A DNA stretch of 64,000 nt from NCBI GenBank assembly GCA_910574995.1, contig CAJTCS010000003.1:248001-312000 (forward strand). The letters are read 5' to 3'. Below, in pieces: positions 2,813 through 15,735 of the stretch; the stretch's first letter is position 1; every line of letters begins with the position of its first letter. The stretch comes from Oscillospiraceae bacterium. GTDB taxonomy: Bacteria > Bacillota > Clostridia > Oscillospirales > Acutalibacteraceae. The notes below the pieces were generated by a model. The model saw only the letters and a list, made by a program, of their open reading frames with translations, was not told where the DNA came from and made no database searches. The position numbers and the translations under genes were made by a program.

Positions 2813-3679
2813 ATGGCAAAATTTACCTGTAATTTTATCTCATATACATTGAAGCGTACTGTGGACATCACAGTGGTTATCCCTTCCCCTACGATCCCGG
2901 ATTCCCTGGGCATGACGGGGGACGGCAACTGTACCCATATGCCTAAGGAAAAGTACCCGGTGGTATACCTGCTTCATGGCATGGGCAACAACCACGCCAC
3001 CTGGACGGGATATACCAACGTAGAACTGTACGCGGAAGAGCGGCAGATCGCCATTGTGAACCTGTCCGCTGAGAACAAGAGCTATGTAAAAATCGGCGGC
3101 GACGACTTTTACGCCTTCGTTTCCAAGGAACTGCCAGACTTTGTGTGCGGCATGTTCCCCGTCAGCCGCGAGCCGGAGCATACCTACATCGCCGGGCTTT
3201 CCATGGGCGGCTATGGCACGCTGGTGCACGCCCTTAGCCAGCCCCAGCGGTTCAAGGCTTTTGGCGCGCTTTCCGCCGCGGTTAACATAAACCCTTACGA
3301 GCTGGCCGGGGGCAACGCCGTGGGGGCTGACAAGAACTTCCAGGCGGATATGGAGCAAAAAGGGATGAAACCGGATATTGCGGCGTCCCGGGAAACCAAG
3401 GTCGGGCCGGAGATTGACCCGGAAAGCCTGGCGGAAAAGCTAAAGGCAGACGGCAAGGCTTTCCCCAAGGCGTACATTGCCTGCGGCAAGAAGGATTTCC
3501 TTTTCGAGGCCGACAGCGCCTTCCGGGACAAGCTGATAAGCCTGGGCGCGGACGTGACCTGGGACGAACACCCCGATTACGGCCACGAGTGGCGCTTCTG
3601 GGATCTGGAGATTGAAAAGTTCCTGGATTGGCTGCCCCGTACCGATGGGTACGCTAAGGTGGGCAGGCGCCAGATTTAA
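2813..3679 (+). CDS. Alpha/beta-hydrolase esterase, FrmB/esterase D family (copy 2)
   Basis: A 288-residue tandem paralogue of the preceding gene, which ends 37 bases upstream. The first ~165 and last ~75 residues are nearly identical to copy 1, including GLSMGGYG and EHPDYGHEW. The middle (about residues 165-215) is different and 14 residues longer. The shared block starts upstream of the ATG (GGGGCTGTTAGCAGCT in both leaders), so the duplication included the translation start. The diverged middle maps to the lid/cap region that shapes the acyl or sugar pocket in this fold, which suggests a change in specificity. It is probably translated from the same mRNA as copy 1. Confidence 0.88.
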   Translation: MAKFTCNFISYTLKRTVDITVVIPSPTIPDSLGMTGDGNCTHMPKEKYPVVYLLHGMGNNHATWTGYTNVELYAEERQIAIVNLSAENKSYVKIGGDDFYAFVSKELPDFVCGMFPVSREPEHTYIAGLSMGGYGTLVHALSQPQRFKAFGALSAAVNINPYELAGGNAVGADKNFQADMEQKGMKPDIAASRETKVGPEIDPESLAEKLKADGKAFPKAYIACGKKDFLFEADSAFRDKLISLGADVTWDEHPDYGHEWRFWDLEIEKFLDWLPRTDGYAKVGRRQI

Positions 3680-3777
3680 CCAGGGGGGAGGGGCGCAGCT
3701 TTAAGCCGCCAGAGGCCCCAATACCGCCAAAAAGCATTTCTATATTTAGCCTCCGCAAATTGGCAAACAACAAGCAG

Positions 3778-3812
3778 GGCCGCCCCAAACCTCTCGGTGG
3801 GGCGGCCTTTTT
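3778..3812 (+). terminator. Intrinsic terminator after the esterase pair
   Basis: A perfect 9-bp stem GGCCGCCCC/GGGGCGGCC with a 12-base loop, followed by TTTTT on the plus strand. It lies between convergent genes. A second hairpin (CCCGCACG/CGTGCGGG, 3815-3838) follows but has no U-run. Confidence 0.85.
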
Positions 3813-3837
3813 GTGCCCGCACGTGCCGCCGTGCGGG

Positions 3838-5376
3838 TCAATCTGTATATTGCTTGCGGTATTCGTTAGGGGTCAGGCCGGTGCGTTCCCGGAAGATATG
3901 GGAAAAGTAGGAAAAGTTGTCATACCCCACCCGCAGGGCGATCTCGTTTACCGGCACGCTGGTCTCGGCCAGCAGCTTTTCCGCCTCGTGTATGCGCAGC
4001 TCCTGTACATAGGCCCCCAAAGACTGGCCCGTCTCTTTTTTGAACAGCCGCGCTAGGTAGTCTGGATTCAAAAATACCAGGCTGGCCATGGTGGCCCGGG
4101 TAATCTCCTCGTTATAATGGCTTTTAATATACCCCTTCACCTGCCCCACCACAGACTGCCCCTGGTGGGCGGCCTCCAGGGCCTTGCTGGCCGCTGTGAC
4201 CATATAGTGCAGGTACCGCTTCATGTGGTCCAAAGAACGGCTGGAGTTTTCCCGCAGCGTTTCAAACCGCTGGCCGGAGAACAGGTCGTAGGCGCTTACT
4301 TGCCGTTCCTTTAGCACGATGCACACCAGCTGCAGCATGTCCATGCGCAGGGCTTTCAAATAAGGCGTGTTCAGTTCTCCCCGGGCGGCCAGACGGTCTA
4401 GGTGGGCGTCGATCTGCTGGGCTAACTCTTCCCCCCGGCAGGCCCGCAGCAGCAGTTCCCATTCCTTTGCCTGGGGCATAGAGTACGACAGGGGGCGTTT
4501 GCGGTATTCCCCGGCGGCATATACTGCGCCGCGGCTGCTGGCATCGTCTAAAAAGCAGTCCTCCAGCTCTAGGTAGGCCCCGTGCGCCTGGTCTAGGTAC
4601 ACGCCCGCTTTGAAAAAACAGTTTAGCCAGGCAGACAGATGCTCTTGCGCCACGTTGCACAGTTTGCAGCACATGGCCCGAAGGGATTCTTGGCCGGCGC
4701 CTTCGCCTTCCTGGAATACCGTGCACCAATCCCCATCCCCCAGGGGGATCTGCGCCTCTTGGGACAGGCCGGCAGCGGGGTACAATTCTTCCAGCACATT
4801 ACGCAGGGCGTACTTCTTCCAGGGGGATACGGTCTCGGCGCCGTCTGCCAAAGAAAAGATACACAGGGAAAACCGGTCCTCCGGGGCGTACCCCCCGGCT
4901 TCCAGGGCCCATTCCCCGCCAGAAAGCAGGTTTTGCCAGAAAGCCCGCCTGCCCATCCGGTCCACGTCTTCCCAGCGCCCGCCATAGCGGCGCAGGCTCC
5001 GGTTTTTTTCCGCCTCCCGCACAGCCGCGGCCAGATGTTCCTGCAGCTCTTCATAGGAGATGGGCTTCAGGAAATAATCGAAGCTGTGAAGCTCTACCGC
5101 CTTTTTGGCATAGTTGAAATCGGCATAGCTGGTGCAGAACAGGGTGACGATGTCCAGCTCGCTGTCCCGTACCCAGCACAGCAGGTCCAAGCCGCTGCCG
5201 CCGGGCATCTCAATATCCGTCACCATGATATCCACATCCCGGGTTTCCAGTATCTCCCTGGCCCGGACGGCATTCTGCGCGGTGTACACGTTCTCAAAGC
5301 CCAACGCCTCGAAATCCACGCCGTCCAATATGCCTTCCAATACGTCCAGCTCGTCGTCAACCAGCAATGCGTTCAA
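3838..5376 (-). CDS. YesN-type response regulator with AraC DNA-binding domain
   Basis: Cytoplasmic transcription factor of 512 residues. An N-terminal receiver domain (about 1-125) has the acidic pair D7-D8, the phospho-acceptor D54 in VTDIEMP, the switch Thr/Ser in CTSYADF, and the lysine in LKPIS. A long linker region of about 270 residues follows, then two AraC helix-turn-helix motifs in the last ~100 residues (ITRATMASLVFLNPDYLARL and VNEIALRVGYDNFSYFSHIF). YesN regulators typically pair with a YesM sensor kinase and control a neighbouring LplB/YtcP sugar importer. That importer is at the start of the window, but no YesM gene is present, so the kinase must lie elsewhere. It is transcribed towards the importer. 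Confidence 0.93.
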   Translation of the reverse strand: MNALLVDDELDVLEGILDGVDFEALGFENVYTAQNAVRAREILETRDVDIMVTDIEMPGGSGLDLLCWVRDSELDIVTLFCTSYADFNYAKKAVELHSFDYFLKPISYEELQEHLAAAVREAEKNRSLRRYGGRWEDVDRMGRRAFWQNLLSGGEWALEAGGYAPEDRFSLCIFSLADGAETVSPWKKYALRNVLEELYPAAGLSQEAQIPLGDGDWCTVFQEGEGAGQESLRAMCCKLCNVAQEHLSAWLNCFFKAGVYLDQAHGAYLELEDCFLDDASSRGAVYAAGEYRKRPLSYSMPQAKEWELLLRACRGEELAQQIDAHLDRLAARGELNTPYLKALRMDMLQLVCIVLKERQVSAYDLFSGQRFETLRENSSRSLDHMKRYLHYMVTAASKALEAAHQGQSVVGQVKGYIKSHYNEEITRATMASLVFLNPDYLARLFKKETGQSLGAYVQELRIHEAEKLLAETSVPVNEIALRVGYDNFSYFSHIFRERTGLTPNEYRKQYTD

Positions 5377-10299: not shown

Positions 10300-13200
10300 T
10301 TAAACCTCCACGGCGCCGTCGTACACCTTGATGGCGTCGCCGGTCATGAGCACCCGCTGGTCCGTGTAGTTGATCTTCAGCTCGCCGCCTTTCAGGATCA
10401 CCCGGATGTCCCTGCCTTTTTCACAATAGCCGTTCAGGGTGGCGGCCACCACCGCCGCGCAGGTGCCGGTGCCGCAGGCCATGGTCTCGCCGCTGCCCCG
10501 TTCCCAGATGCGGGCTTTTAGTGTGGCGCTGTCAATGACCTCCACAAAGCCCACGTTTACACGCTGGGGGAACATGGGGTCGTACTCGAACAGGGGCCCC
10601 AGCCGCTCCAGGTCCAGTTTGTCCACAGAGGGCACGAATACCGTACAGTGGGGGTTGCCCATAGAGCAGCAGGTGATATTGTACACACTGCCGTCGATGG
10701 ACACAGGCTTATTGACAATCCGGTCCCCTTCCAGGCGCACAGGCACCTTTTCCGGGTCCAGTTCCGCCTGCCCCATGTCTACGGCCACCCGGTGCACCAG
10801 GCCGTTCTTGGTGATGGCCATGCATTCCTTGACGCCGCTTCTGGTGTCAATGCGCAGCGTCCAACGGCCCTGGCCCGCGGGCTGGCCCTTGGCAATCCCG
10901 TTGTCGAACAAGTATTTAGCCACGCAGCGGATAGCGTTGCCGCCCATCATGCCCTCGCTGCCATCCAGGTTATACAGGCGCATTTGGGCGTCCGCCTTGT
11001 CAGAGGGTTCTATCAGCACGATGCCGTCGCCGCCCACGCCGTTGTGGCGGTCGGAAAGGTAGATGGACAAGAATTCCGGCGAGGATACCTGGTTTTGGGG
11101 GTCGAAGCAGTTAATATAGATATAGTCGTTAGAGCAGGCGGACATTTTGGAGAAGCGCAGCTTCTGTTTTTCTTCCTTTAGGTCGTTGATGTTTACAATC
11201 TCCGTGTTTTCCGGGGTATAGCGGCTCATCAGCGAATCGGCCAACGCGTTTGCCGTGTCGATGGCCGTAAGGCACGGGATGCCCAAAAGGCTTGCCTTGC
11301 GGCGGATTTTTACGCTGTCCCGGGCGGGGTTGCGCCCCTTGGCCGAGGTGGAGATGACGTAGTCTACCTTGCCGCTTTCCAGCAGGGTGATGGTGTTGTC
11401 CCCCGAGTTCTCGTGTATCTTGTCCACGATCTTCACGGGCAGCCCGGCCTTGAACAGCACCATGGCCGTGCCAGTGGTGGCGTACAAGGTGAAATCCATT
11501 TTGCTAAGCTTCTTGGCAATCTCCCCGATTTCCGGCTTGTCCTGGTCCCGTACGGTGATGAACACGCCGCCGCCCTTGCGCATCTGGTGGCCAGAGGCGA
11601 TCAGCCCCTTATACAGGGCCTCCTCCAGGCTGTTGCCGATGCCCAGCACTTCGCCGGTGGACTTCATCTCCGGGCCCAGGTGGGTATCCACGTCGGTCAG
11701 CTTCTCGAAGGAGAACACCGGCACCTTTACCGCCACATAGGGCGAAGCCTTATACAGCCCTGTGCCAAAGCCCAGGTCTTTTAATTTATAGCCCAGGCTC
11801 ACCTTGGTGGCCAGGTCGCACATGGGCACCCCTGTCACCTTGCTGATATAGGGCACGGTGCGGCTGGCCCGGGGGTTTACCTCGATGACGTAGATCTCCC
11901 CGTCCATGATGATATACTGCAGGTTGATAAGGCCGATGCCGCGCAGCTCCCGGCACAGGGTGCCGGTGGTAGAGACGATTTTCGCCGCCATGCCGTCGTC
12001 GATGTCCGAGGCCGGGTACACGGCGATGCTGTCGCCGGAGTGGATGCCCGTGCGCTCCACATGCTCCATAATGCCGGGGATGAGGATGTCGTCCCCGTCG
12101 CAGATAGCGTCTACTTCGATCTCCATGCCGGAAAGGTATTTGTCGATCAGTACCGGGTTGTCCTGCTGGTGGGAGAGGATGATGGCCATATATTCCTCTA
12201 TGTCCTCGTCGCAGTAGGCGATGATCATATTCTGCCCGCCCAGCACGTAAGAGGGGCGCATCAGCACCGGGTACCCCAGGCTGCGGGCGGCGTCCAATGC
12301 CTCTTGCGCCGTCATGATGGTGAAGCCCTTGGGCCGGCGGATGCCGGAACGCTCTAAAAGGGCGTCGAAGCGTTCCCGGTCCTCGGCCATGTCGATGGTG
12401 TCGGCAGAGGAGCCCAAAATGGGGATATTGTTTGCCGCCAGGGTCTTGGTCAGCTTGATGGCCGTCTGGCCGCCAAAGGCCACCACCACGCCGATGGGCT
12501 TCTCGATCTGGATGATGTCCATCACGTCCTCTGGGGAGAGGGGCTCGAAGTACAGCCGGTCGCCGGTGTCGAAGTCTGTAGAGACGGTTTCCGGGTTGTT
12601 GTTGATGATGACCACCTCATACCCCAGCTGCCGCAGGGACATGACGCAGTGGACGCTGGCATAGTCGAACTCGATGCCCTGGCCGATGCGGATGGGCCCG
12701 CTGCCCAGCACCACCACGGTCTTTTTCCCCGGGTTGCGGCCGATGAACTCCAGGGCCTCGTTCTCGCCGCCGCTTTCCTCGGTGTCATAGGTGGCGTAGA
12801 AATAGGGGGTGTGGGCGGCAAATTCCCCGGCGCAGGTGTCCACCATTTTAAAGGTGGGCTTGCGCTGCCACGTTACCTCACACCCGGAAAGCCGGGCGAT
12901 GGCCGCGTCCGGATAGCCCAGCTGCTTGCCCTGGGTGTAGAGCTCTTCCGTAAGCTGGCCTTTGGCCAGTTCGCGTTCATAGGCAAGGAGGTTCAAAAGT
13001 TTATTTAGGAACCACCGGTCCATTAAGGTCTTTTCGTATATCTCGTCCACGGCCACGCCCCGCTTCAGCAGCTCGTAGATGGCGAACAGCCGCTCGTCTG
13101 TGGCGTGTATGGCAACGTGCCACAGGTTTTCATCCGTCTCACCGGCGAACTTGGGCAGGTTCAGGGTGTCCAGGCCAATCTCTGCCCCCCGCACGGCCTT

Positions 13201-14382
13201 CATCAGGGCCATTTCAAAGCTGTCGGCAATGCTCATCACCTCGCCGGTGGCCTTCATCTGGGTGCCCAGTTCCCGCTTGGCGTAGACGAATTTATCGAAG
13301 GGCCACTTGGGGAATTTCACCGCCACATAGTCGATGGTGGGCTCGAAAGCCGCATAGGTCACGCCGGTAACAGCGTTCTTGATCTCGTCCAGGGTGTAGC
13401 CAATGGCGATCTTGGTGGCCACCTTGGCAATGGGGTAGCCCGTGGCTTTGGAGGCCAGGGCGGAAGAGCGGCTTACCCGGGGGTTCACCTCGATGACGGC
13501 GTATTCAAAGCTGGTGGGGTGCAGGGCAAACTGGCAGTTGCAGCCGCCCTCTACCCCCAGCTCGTTGATGATGTCCAACGCCGCCGTGCGCAGCATCTGG
13601 TATTCTTTGTCAGAGAGGGTGACCGTGGGGGCGATGACGATGGAATCGCCGGTGTGCACGCCCACGGGGTCCACGTTCTCCATAGAGCAGATGGTGATGG
13701 TGTTGCCCTTGCCGTCCCGCATCACCTCAAATTCAATCTCTTTCCACCCGGCAATGCTTTTTTCAATTAAGATCTGGGTGATGGGGGACAGGGCCAGGCC
13801 GTTTGCGGCCACCTCCCGCAGTTCCTCCTGGCCGTTGACGATGCCGCCGCCGGTGCCGCCCAAAGTGAACGCGGGCCGGACAATGACCGGGTAGCCGATC
13901 TCCTGGGCAAAATCCTCCGCGTCCTCCACGGTGGTCACCACCTTCGAGGGCACGCAGGGCTGGCCGATGCGCTCCATGGCGTCCTTGAAAAGCTGCCGGT
14001 CCTCAGCCTTGTCGATGGTCTCTGGGGAAGCCCCCAGCAGGCGCACCCCGTGCTCTTCCAAAAAGCCGTCCTTTGCCAGCTGCATGGAAAGGGTAAGGCC
14101 CGTCTGCCCGCCAAAGCCGGAGAGGATGCTGTCGGGCTTTTCTTTTTCGATGATGCGTTTCACGGTGGTCAGGGTCAGGGGCTCGATGTATATTTTGTCG
14201 GCCATGGCCTTGTCCGTCATGATGGTGGCGGGGTTGGAGTTTACCAGCACGATCTCGATGCCGTCCTCCCGCAGGGCCCGGCAGGCCTGTGTGCCCGCAT
14301 AGTCGAACTCGGCGGCCTGGCCGATGACGATGGGGCCCGAGCCGATTACCAATACTTTTTTGATATTTTTATTCAGCGGCAT
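10300..14382 (-). CDS. carB-dapF: Carbamoyl-phosphate synthase large subunit fused to diaminopimelate epimerase
   Basis: A single 1360-codon frame with no stop or shift. Residues 1 to about 1070 are a complete CarB: two ATP-grasp halves (each opening with VLVIGSGP/VVLGSGPIRIGQ), the oligomerisation domain, and the C-terminal MGS-like allosteric domain (FTLYATTGTA..). This part makes carbamoyl phosphate with the CarA glutaminase encoded upstream. A linker of about 10 charged residues leads into a full DapF (about 1076-1360) that converts LL- to meso-diaminopimelate. It keeps both catalytic cysteines, in GGNAIRC (near 1152) and ACGTGTC (near 1303), and RWERGSGE-like ERGSGET. AGGAGG lies 7 bases before the ATG. 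CarB normally ends at ~1070 and DapF at ~275 as separate enzymes; the fused length equals their sum. Confidence 0.93.
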   Translation of the reverse strand: MPLNKNIKKVLVIGSGPIVIGQAAEFDYAGTQACRALREDGIEIVLVNSNPATIMTDKAMADKIYIEPLTLTTVKRIIEKEKPDSILSGFGGQTGLTLSMQLAKDGFLEEHGVRLLGASPETIDKAEDRQLFKDAMERIGQPCVPSKVVTTVEDAEDFAQEIGYPVIVRPAFTLGGTGGGIVNGQEELREVAANGLALSPITQILIEKSIAGWKEIEFEVMRDGKGNTITICSMENVDPVGVHTGDSIVIAPTVTLSDKEYQMLRTAALDIINELGVEGGCNCQFALHPTSFEYAVIEVNPRVSRSSALASKATGYPIAKVATKIAIGYTLDEIKNAVTGVTYAAFEPTIDYVAVKFPKWPFDKFVYAKRELGTQMKATGEVMSIADSFEMALMKAVRGAEIGLDTLNLPKFAGETDENLWHVAIHATDERLFAIYELLKRGVAVDEIYEKTLMDRWFLNKLLNLLAYERELAKGQLTEELYTQGKQLGYPDAAIARLSGCEVTWQRKPTFKMVDTCAGEFAAHTPYFYATYDTEESGGENEALEFIGRNPGKKTVVVLGSGPIRIGQGIEFDYASVHCVMSLRQLGYEVVIINNNPETVSTDFDTGDRLYFEPLSPEDVMDIIQIEKPIGVVVAFGGQTAIKLTKTLAANNIPILGSSADTIDMAEDRERFDALLERSGIRRPKGFTIMTAQEALDAARSLGYPVLMRPSYVLGGQNMIIAYCDEDIEEYMAIILSHQQDNPVLIDKYLSGMEIEVDAICDGDDILIPGIMEHVERTGIHSGDSIAVYPASDIDDGMAAKIVSTTGTLCRELRGIGLINLQYIIMDGEIYVIEVNPRASRTVPYISKVTGVPMCDLATKVSLGYKLKDLGFGTGLYKASPYVAVKVPVFSFEKLTDVDTHLGPEMKSTGEVLGIGNSLEEALYKGLIASGHQMRKGGGVFITVRDQDKPEIGEIAKKLSKMDFTLYATTGTAMVLFKAGLPVKIVDKIHENSGDNTITLLESGKVDYVISTSAKGRNPARDSVKIRRKASLLGIPCLTAIDTANALADSLMSRYTPENTEIVNINDLKEEKQKLRFSKMSACSNDYIYINCFDPQNQVSSPEFLSIYLSDRHNGVGGDGIVLIEPSDKADAQMRLYNLDGSEGMMGGNAIRCVAKYLFDNGIAKGQPAGQGRWTLRIDTRSGVKECMAITKNGLVHRVAVDMGQAELDPEKVPVRLEGDRIVNKPVSIDGSVYNITCCSMGNPHCTVFVPSVDKLDLERLGPLFEYDPMFPQRVNVGFVEVIDSATLKARIWERGSGETMACGTGTCAAVVAATLNGYCEKGRDIRVILKGGELKINYTDQRVLMTGDAIKVYDGAVEV

Positions 14383-14499: not shown

Positions 14500-15573
14500 T
14501 CAGCGCCCCATCAGCTGGAAAAAGTCGTCGAACAGCCAGGCCGTATCCAAGGGCCCGCCGCAGGCTTCCGGGTGGAACTGCACGGAAAACGCCGGGGCGC
14601 CCAGATAGCGGATGCCCTCGCAGGTGCCGTCGTTTACATTGCGGTACAATTCTTTGGCCACCCGGGGGTCCAGGCTTTCCGATTCTATAGCGTAGCCATG
14701 GTTCTGGCTGGAGATGTACACCCGCCCGGTCTCCAGGTTTTTCACCGGCTGGTTCTCCCCCCTGTGGCCATATTTCAGCTTCTTCCGGCCCGCGCCGTGG
14801 GCCAGGGCCAGCAGCTGGTGCCCCAGGCATATGCCGAACATGGGCAGCCCCAGGCCGCAGATTTCCCGCAGGTTTGCAACCAGTTCCCCGTCCTCCGCCG
14901 GGTCGCCGGGGCCGTTGGAAAGCATCACCCCGTCCGCGCCCAAGGCCGCGACCTCTTGGGCCGTTACGGTGCAGGGGTATACCGTAACCTCGGCCCCCCG
15001 CTTCACCAGCTCCCGCAGGATGTTCTCTTTCATGCCGTAGTCGATGAGGGCCAGCTTCTTCTGGGCGCCCCCTTCGGGCTTTACCGTGTAGGCTTTCTCG
15101 GCTGACACAGCCCGCACCGCGCCCTTTACCCGGTAGGCTTTCAAGGCATCCATATCCACGTTTTTGGGGTCGTCGGTGATGACCCCGTTCATTACGCCTT
15201 TTTCCCGGATAAGTTTGGTCAGCGCCCGGGTGTCGATATCGGAAAGGCCCACGATACCCCGTTCTTCAAAAAAGGTGTCAAGACTGCCCTCTGAACGGAA
15301 GTTAGAGGGTGCTTGGCACCAATGCTTTACAATATAACCCCGGGGGCCTATTTCTTTGCTTTCAAAGTCGGCGGGAATAACGCCGTAATTACCGATAAGG
15401 GGGAACGTCTGTACCACAGCCTGCCCCCAATAGCTGCGGTCTGTCAAGGTTTCGCAATACCCTGTCATGCCTGTGGTAAACACCACCTCCGCCGTTACGT
15501 CGCCAGAAGCGCCGAAGCGTTTGCCCCGGAATACCCGGCCGTTTTCTAACACTAGATATGCCGTTTTCCCCAT
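14500..15573 (-). CDS. carA: Carbamoyl-phosphate synthase small subunit (glutaminase)
   Basis: A 357-residue glutamine amidotransferase subunit that hydrolyses glutamine and channels ammonia to CarB for pyrimidine and arginine synthesis. The N-terminal CarA domain has TGMTGYCETLTDRSY. The class I glutaminase domain has the nucleophile Cys in FGICLGHQ and the His/Glu pair in VQFHPEACGGP. The chosen start (MGKTAYLVLENG) is 6 bases behind AGGAAGAG and gives the normal length; the frame is open further upstream without support. It is first in the carA/carB-dapF operon, 117 bases ahead of the fusion gene. Confidence 0.95.
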   Translation of the reverse strand: MGKTAYLVLENGRVFRGKRFGASGDVTAEVVFTTGMTGYCETLTDRSYWGQAVVQTFPLIGNYGVIPADFESKEIGPRGYIVKHWCQAPSNFRSEGSLDTFFEERGIVGLSDIDTRALTKLIREKGVMNGVITDDPKNVDMDALKAYRVKGAVRAVSAEKAYTVKPEGGAQKKLALIDYGMKENILRELVKRGAEVTVYPCTVTAQEVAALGADGVMLSNGPGDPAEDGELVANLREICGLGLPMFGICLGHQLLALAHGAGRKKLKYGHRGENQPVKNLETGRVYISSQNHGYAIESESLDPRVAKELYRNVNDGTCEGIRYLGAPAFSVQFHPEACGGPLDTAWLFDDFFQLMGR

Positions 15574-15630
15574 ATATCTCTTCCTTTCCATGGTCTGTGG
15601 TAGCTTAATCCCGCCTGTTCTCAATAGTAT

Positions 15631-15659
15631 ATCATACAAGAAAACGATGGGCCGCGCAA
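15631..15659 (-). promoter_or_regulatory. Promoter of the carA/carB-dapF operon
   Basis: On the minus strand: TTGCGC, a 17-base spacer, TATGAT, about 58 bases before the carA ATG. The leader is too short for a PyrR-type attenuator, and I see no terminator in it. Confidence 0.65.
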
Positions 15660-15735
15660 GGGGGATTTTCAATTCTGCTTTTTTGCCCAAAAAACCCCGC
15701 GCGGCCCGCCCATTTTCTATACCTGTGTCCGTGCC

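Follow-up and report, generated by a model that had tools for sequence, protein, structure and literature searches.

We analysed a stretch of 64,000 nucleotides from an Oscillospiraceae bacterium (contig CAJTCS010000003.1, positions 248,001 to 312,000; hereafter the window). In this window, one gene encodes the large subunit of carbamoyl-phosphate synthase (CPSase), CarB, fused to a domain derived from DapF, the diaminopimelate (DAP) epimerase. In the DapF-derived domain, the first of the two catalytic cysteines is replaced by glycine; apart from this change, the other nine functional residues are all kept. The reading that we favour, with a probability of about 0.6, is that the fused domain is non-catalytic and functional, a former epimerase kept as a pseudoenzyme part of CPSase that probably binds a ligand.

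The CarB-DapF gene and its catalytic site

The gene is a single uninterrupted open reading frame of 1360 codons that starts with ATG and encodes 1360 amino acids (aa) (14382-10300, minus strand). The initial annotation had described such a frame, with a full CarB followed by a full DapF, and both points were borne out. The CarB part matched NCBIfam NF003671 (1461 bits, residues 1-1054) and TIGR01369 (1422.5 bits, residues 4-1049), in each case above the cut-off. The match to TIGR01369/PRK05294 was full-length, and both ATP-grasp halves and the MGS domain were present. The MGS-like domain is the usual allosteric domain of CPSases. The gene of the small subunit, carA, lies immediately upstream (TIGR01368, 428.7 bits). 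The DapF part matched TIGR00652 at residues 1076-1358 (250.7 bits; cut-off 114.65). No second CarB that would make the fusion dispensable was found in the genome, where the next match had only 48.2 bits and 26% identity. Since the fused gene is the only CarB found in the genome, its CarB part is likely to be active as a CPSase.

In characterised DapFs, the first catalytic cysteine stands in the motif M-C-G-N and the second in A-C-G-T/S-G. According to the available text of PMC5296763, they correspond to Cys83 and Cys221 of Corynebacterium glutamicum DapF, in which the exchanges C83A and C221A left almost no activity; the same held for the alanine mutants of N15, N74, N85, N159, N194, E212, R213 and T223. 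In the window, the first motif reads M-G-G-N, and alignments with PDB entries placed Gly1147 at the position of the first catalytic cysteine. The second (Cys1303) and the equivalents of all eight other residues are present. The initial annotation had stated that both catalytic cysteines were kept, in GGNAIRC and ACGTGTC. This was mistaken for the first of them: the cysteine of GGNAIRC occupies a non-catalytic position, which holds C in 71, S in five and G in one of 77 standalone DapFs, and the position of the MCGN cysteine is the one held by Gly1147. We infer from the sequence that the window domain has lost its epimerase activity. As it passes the TIGR00652 cut-off without this catalytic cysteine, automatic pathway reconstruction would score it as DapF.

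The predicted structure (AlphaFold2, residues 924-1360) had a mean predicted local distance difference test score (pLDDT) of 90.0 and a predicted TM-score of 0.78, with linker blocks at a pLDDT of 66-73. Its top PDB match in Foldseek was 2otn, and the best matches were all DapFs. The list also included the DapF mutants C73S and C217S (2q9h, 2q9j). Because structures of both mutants exist, single-cysteine forms of DapF fold.

The features discussed are as follows.

10300..14382, minus strand: carB-dapF fusion gene, 1360 aa, the sole CPSase large subunit found in the genome (profile matches and genome search)
11203..14382, minus strand: CarB part, residues 1 to about 1060, full length (NF003671 1-1054; CPSase_L_D1/D2/D3 and MGS)
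11266..11529, minus strand: MGS-like domain of CarB, residues 952-1039 (domain match)
11164..11202, minus strand: short linker between CarB and DapF, about residues 1061-1073 (sequence; pLDDT 66-73)
10303..11163, minus strand: DapF-derived domain, residues 1074-1360, 287 aa (profile, PDB alignments and model)
10942..10944, minus strand: Gly1147 (GGC), replacing the first catalytic Cys (Cys83 of C. glutamicum, Cys73 of Haemophilus influenzae) (alignment)
10474..10476, minus strand: Cys1303 (TGC), equivalent of the second catalytic Cys (Cys221/Cys217), kept (alignment)
10924..10926, minus strand: Cys1153, the cysteine of 'IRC', at a non-catalytic position (alignment)
14500..15690, minus strand: carA, CPSase small subunit, directly upstream of the fusion (TIGR01368, 428.7 bits)

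An Rfam scan of the window gave 0 matches at the gathering threshold. A promoter and terminator scan yielded about as many sites as in shuffled sequence and was not used.

Replacement of the first cysteine among fused genes

The main set comprised 178 domains, namely 101 fused genes of the order, hand-picked from the matches listed for spread over families, and 77 standalone DapFs. It omits matches cut by contig ends and many near-relatives; six of those omitted (G003, G012, G016, G025, G026 and G037; G, C and L numbers are our labels for genomes, contigs and loci) were seen to keep the cysteine. The first cysteine was missing in 65 of the 101 fused genes, which is not an unbiased rate because the genes were hand-picked; 36 kept it, and none of the 77 standalone DapFs lacked it. 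The replacing residues were A (43), G (14), S (six), F (one) and T (one). Alanine, the commonest natural replacement, is the same change as the inactivating C83A of C. glutamicum DapF. A further 90 loci, some of them also in the main set, comprised 38 standalone domains, all with the cysteine, and 52 fused ones, of which 22 lacked it. When both sets were deduplicated, 114 of 114 standalone DapFs kept both cysteines and 81 of 146 fused domains lacked the first.

The 65 Cys-less domains all have N74, N159, N194, E212, R213 and T223 (65/65 each), and 63 of them keep the second cysteine, C221. The reverse was seen in the fused domains of G041 and G258, where the first cysteine is kept and the second is absent. 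Two loci, L076 (G065) and L120 (G041), have unusual sites, with Ser for the second cysteine and GGPL following the position of the first, where G065 has Thr and G041 has Cys. Serine 215 was changed to Asn in 49 of the 65 Cys-less domains, compared with two of the 36 two-Cys fused domains and none of the 77 standalone DapFs. As an obligatory partner of cysteine loss this change was rejected, because the window keeps Ser and the association was not significant on independent tree pairs.

On the DapF tree, from which the trait columns were excluded, loss of the cysteine took at least nine changes, five of them forced by supported branches. One Ala-rich Cys-less clade had 44 members, and the Gly clade of the window (five genomes of the genus) formed a separate group. 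A FastTree of CarB alone, with 100 of the 101 rows, gave at least eight changes, seven of them forced by supported branches. The 44-member clade was again one side of a branch, which implied that the fused gene evolved as a unit. The cysteine is present in all standalone DapFs seen and in eight of the nine fused loci retrieved from outside the order, so the direction of change would most simply be loss.

The fusion itself is widespread, and the idea that it is unique to this locus was rejected. In 38 of 60 genomes (that of the window and 59 relatives), the DapF match fell within a frame of at least 1250 aa; these fusions were judged by frame length, and the CarB part was verified for those retrieved. 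Fused matches were found in at least 40 of 291 genomes sampled from the class, and 37 of those listed lie outside the order. In the phylum sample they were found in at least 15 of 299 genomes, 13 of those listed lying outside the class. Named examples include Neglectibacter sp. X58 and several Ruminococcus records. Among 100 fused loci of relatives, carA was immediately upstream in 78, no carA match was present in the stretch covered in 19, and three were otherwise arranged. The same uninterrupted junction occurs in many independent genomes, so a frameshift or assembly error at the junction was rejected. The initial annotation had proposed a search for the architecture across Clostridia, which this survey answers; it also knew of no characterised enzyme of this type, in agreement with the literature searched, which gave no description of a CarB-DapF fusion (the available part of PMC9026213 included; subscription journals were mostly outside reach).

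Some matches were peculiar. A record titled as a Treponema metagenome-assembled genome (L210) carries a Cys-less fusion of clostridial type, likely on a misbinned contig. Two matches, G371:C57:1473-2735 and G592:C68:3145-4413, run from the CarB tail into DapF and contain a single in-frame TAA, either between the two parts or inside them; they are possibly adjacent unfused genes. On the DapF tree, the fused domains of L099 (G086), L108 (G158) and L083 (G133) were placed, with weak support, apart from the bulk of the fused ones, and perhaps represent separate fusions.

Selection, routes to meso-DAP and rival readings

The Cys-less fused domains show little sign of decay. For a given level of CarB identity, they were mutually as similar as the two-Cys domains (0.604 versus 0.590 at CarB identities of 70-75%). 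The median ratio of nonsynonymous to synonymous substitution rates (dN/dS, NG86) of the domain was 0.131 over the 10 pairs of Cys-less genomes and 0.165 over the 135 pairs of two-Cys genomes; the corresponding medians of the CarB part were 0.057 and 0.088. These pairs came from five Cys-less and 17 two-Cys genomes (16 of the genus and G262), one of the 136 two-Cys pairs being removed by the dS filter. Among the 65 Cys-less domains, six of nine contact sites were invariant, compared with 35 of 285 columns (hypergeometric P = 1.5e-4). A catalytic residue is gone, and binding-site residues and purifying selection are retained, as expected of a pseudoenzyme.

The genome also has other means of making meso-DAP. 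The initial annotation had called for a check that no second dapF exists; one is present on contig C6 (about 3169-3963, minus strand, 266 aa), with both cysteines. It sits in a run purF-asnB-pyrG-dapF-dapL (L287 1973-8708, contig C6), in which purF, asnB and pyrG are glutamine-dependent genes. A Ddh-family match of 260.7 bits was found at C3:145762-146229. With the separate two-Cys DapF and the Ddh match, there are two probable routes to meso-DAP without the fused domain. A separate dapF together with lost epimerase activity in the fusion would, according to the annotation, have told against its own proposal; the gene was found, and the loss of activity is suggested by Gly1147.

Outside the genus, 42 of 60 Cys-less genomes had another DapF, and 56 had another DapF or a strong Ddh match. 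For the 20 two-Cys genomes, the numbers were six and 13. 'Another DapF' means another PF01678 protein, a count that leaves aside the pyridoxal-phosphate-type DapF2 proposed in the available part of PMC9026213. Over these 80 genomes, 38 strong Ddh matches were counted, and weaker ones above the Pfam cut-off (G065, G305, G117, G258) were scored as absent. Within the genus, all five Gly-type genomes (own included) have another DapF and a Ddh match, the latter being present in only three of 16 two-Cys genomes. In 15 of the 16 two-Cys congeners retrieved (L041, L045-L056 and other same-genus loci), a standalone two-Cys dapF lies on the same retrieved stretch as the fusion. Seven genomes of the two-Cys group (G099, G216, G307, G062, G133, G314 and G041; G216 is 83% complete) had neither another DapF nor a strong Ddh match. 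As the site of G041 is otherwise degenerate, it is in the other six that the fused domain probably serves as the working DapF.

We inspected 20 regions with a standalone dapF. Six of them have an unfused carB-dapF-dapL cluster, with a second carB in addition to the fused gene (L293 (G224), L294 (G125), L295 (G132), L296 (G258), L299 (G077) and L300 (G029)). In these clusters, carA was seen in five (the sixth stretch begins inside carB), CarB was verified with Pfam in four, and dapF is a separate gene after carB with its own start. Such a cluster may resemble the pre-fusion state. All six genomes have a fused domain without one catalytic cysteine (the second in G258, the first in the others). 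The remaining regions showed pyrG-dapF-dapL in five genomes of the genus (own included), pyrG-purF-dapF-dapL in two, dapF-pyrG-dapL in one and none of these in six. The neighbourhood of dapF and nucleotide-synthesis genes is recurrent.

We suggest that carB and dapF were joined into a single gene in an ancestor shared by many Clostridia, and that the fused DapF domain was at first a working epimerase. Later, the first catalytic cysteine might have been replaced (by Ala, Gly or Ser; Gly in the window) in most sampled fused genes of the order. Epimerisation depends on two cysteines in the known mechanism and would end with this change, and purifying selection has retained the fold and nearly all ligand-contact residues. 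Fusion after the C-terminal end of the MGS domain would place the DapF fold beside the allosteric domain. At this end of CPSase it probably binds DAP or an amino acid and would tune or stabilise the enzyme, and meso-DAP in this organism would come from the separate DapF and/or Ddh. In human CPS1, the C-terminal domain is where the effector binds, and the final 20 residues are important in allosteric cross-talk (PMC4655335, in the text available). The catalytically dead Escherichia coli DapF(C73&217A) binds and stimulates RppH (PMC4227774, likewise in its available part). The position next to the MGS domain and the regulation of RppH by a dead DapF lead us to favour a retained regulatory or stabilising domain, which probably binds a ligand. 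That it is a true DAP sensor is a more tentative proposal.

Several points weigh against the pseudoenzyme reading. Ligand binding by the window domain and an effect on CPSase are both inferences. The retention of the second cysteine in 63 of 65 domains is beyond what a plain sensor needs. N15 is kept in 52 of the 65 Cys-less domains and is Asp in 13, and N85 is kept in 62 and altered in three. The median dN ratio of DapF to CarB in the genus was 2.07 for Cys-less versus 1.90 for two-Cys pairs, a hint of mildly weaker constraint from pairs that are non-independent. The link between cysteine loss and other meso-DAP routes (Fisher P = 0.004) was not significant on phylogenetically independent pairs, which were too few, and is thus a tendency only. 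Four Cys-less genomes had neither another PF01678 protein nor a strong Ddh match: G218 is 84% complete, G065 and G305 have Ddh-family matches of 70-80 bits above the Pfam cut-off, and G321, 99% complete, has none. Conservation of the domain could also reflect a structural role.

Such a role would be that of a tether, the DapF fold being needed for the folding or dimerisation of CarB and the pocket being kept merely as part of the fold. DapF is a dimer (PMC5296763, in the text available) and the linker is short. In addition, two-Cys and Cys-less fused domains share positions that are conserved among fused domains and vary among standalone DapFs (near domain residues 29, 265 and 267), possibly a contact face. 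However, the invariant columns hold more contact residues than expected by chance, and the catalytic cysteine was lost whereas the binding residues were not. We consider this explanation unlikely. It is quite unlikely, too, that the domain became a single-base enzyme, in which the second cysteine, acting alone, takes up or gives back a proton on a single face, and a different reaction (elimination, isomerisation or exchange) takes place on a DAP-related amino acid. That cysteine is kept along with the carboxylate- and amine-contact residues, the change of S215 to Asn accompanies cysteine loss as a remodelled site might, and the fold hosts other chemistries, with 3-hydroxyproline dehydratase, methylitaconate isomerase and PhzF among the structure matches. 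Nevertheless, a new catalytic residue would not be expected to vary as the substitute for the first cysteine does (A, G, S, F, T); none of the pathway genes nearby points to a new substrate; and N215 is neither universal nor significantly linked with cysteine loss on independent pairs. No elimination chemistry of single-Cys DapF mutants was found in the literature searched, nor in the available part of PMC8225329 on a DapF-like racemase.

The initial annotation had read the gene as an enzyme joining two pathways. Its fusion is real and widespread, the domains are full-length with scores above the DapF equivalog cut-off, and in six genomes (G216, G062, G099, G307, G314 and G133) no DapF was found besides a two-Cys fusion, and no Ddh match, so the architecture probably can work. 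In this organism, however, a working bifunctional CarB-DapF enzyme is very improbable. The first cysteine is Gly here, Ala at the same position nearly abolishes C. glutamicum activity, and the genome contains another dapF with both cysteines as well as a Ddh match.

Comparison with known systems and implications

The window protein shares with CarB (TIGR01369) the complete ATP-grasp pair, the oligomerisation and MGS domains and the carA directly upstream, and differs in the extra C-terminal DapF-derived domain of 287 aa. This domain is like DapF (TIGR00652; PDB 2otn, 3ejx, 1bwz, 5m47) in its fold, by sequence and model, its second cysteine and its substrate-contact residues, whereas it has Gly for the first cysteine and is fused to CarB. 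It also reads KMSACSNDY instead of the usual KMHGxGND, a change common to the two-Cys fused domains of the genus.

Human CPS1 keeps an inactive glutaminase-like domain despite a catalytic Cys to Ser change (PMC4655335, available text), although that domain is N-terminal and of unrelated fold and ligand. Yeast URA2 keeps a defective dihydroorotase-like domain in a CPSase-containing fusion (PMC11818841, available text); its dead domain comes from the same pathway, whereas DapF comes from lysine and peptidoglycan synthesis. With these precedents, dead enzyme domains on CPSases are already known. In the E. coli DapF-RppH complex (6d13), DapF controls a partner enzyme even when its catalytic cysteines are absent (PMC4227774, available text), but the two are separate proteins, wild-type DapF is still an epimerase and the partner is unrelated to CPSase. 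A domain on a CPSase that derives from DapF, and that probably died several times over through replacement of a single catalytic residue, would be a new form among them.

A further possibility, which we put forward with reserve, is that the CPSase of a large set of Clostridia recruited DAP epimerase and repeatedly made it a DAP receptor by the loss of one cysteine, thereby coupling the supply of uridine triphosphate (UTP), and of arginine, to that of diaminopimelate. If this were true, the bifunctional enzyme would be the ancestral form, represented by those two-Cys fusions beside which no other DapF was found, and the need of UDP-MurNAc-peptides for UTP and diaminopimelate in step would be relevant. 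The pseudoenzyme reading would imply a natural conversion of an enzyme to a binding domain, repeated several times, in which the one residue lost has been identified and two-Cys relatives, probably active, are at hand for comparison. If the domain senses DAP, it would directly link peptidoglycan precursor supply to pyrimidine and arginine synthesis in Clostridia.

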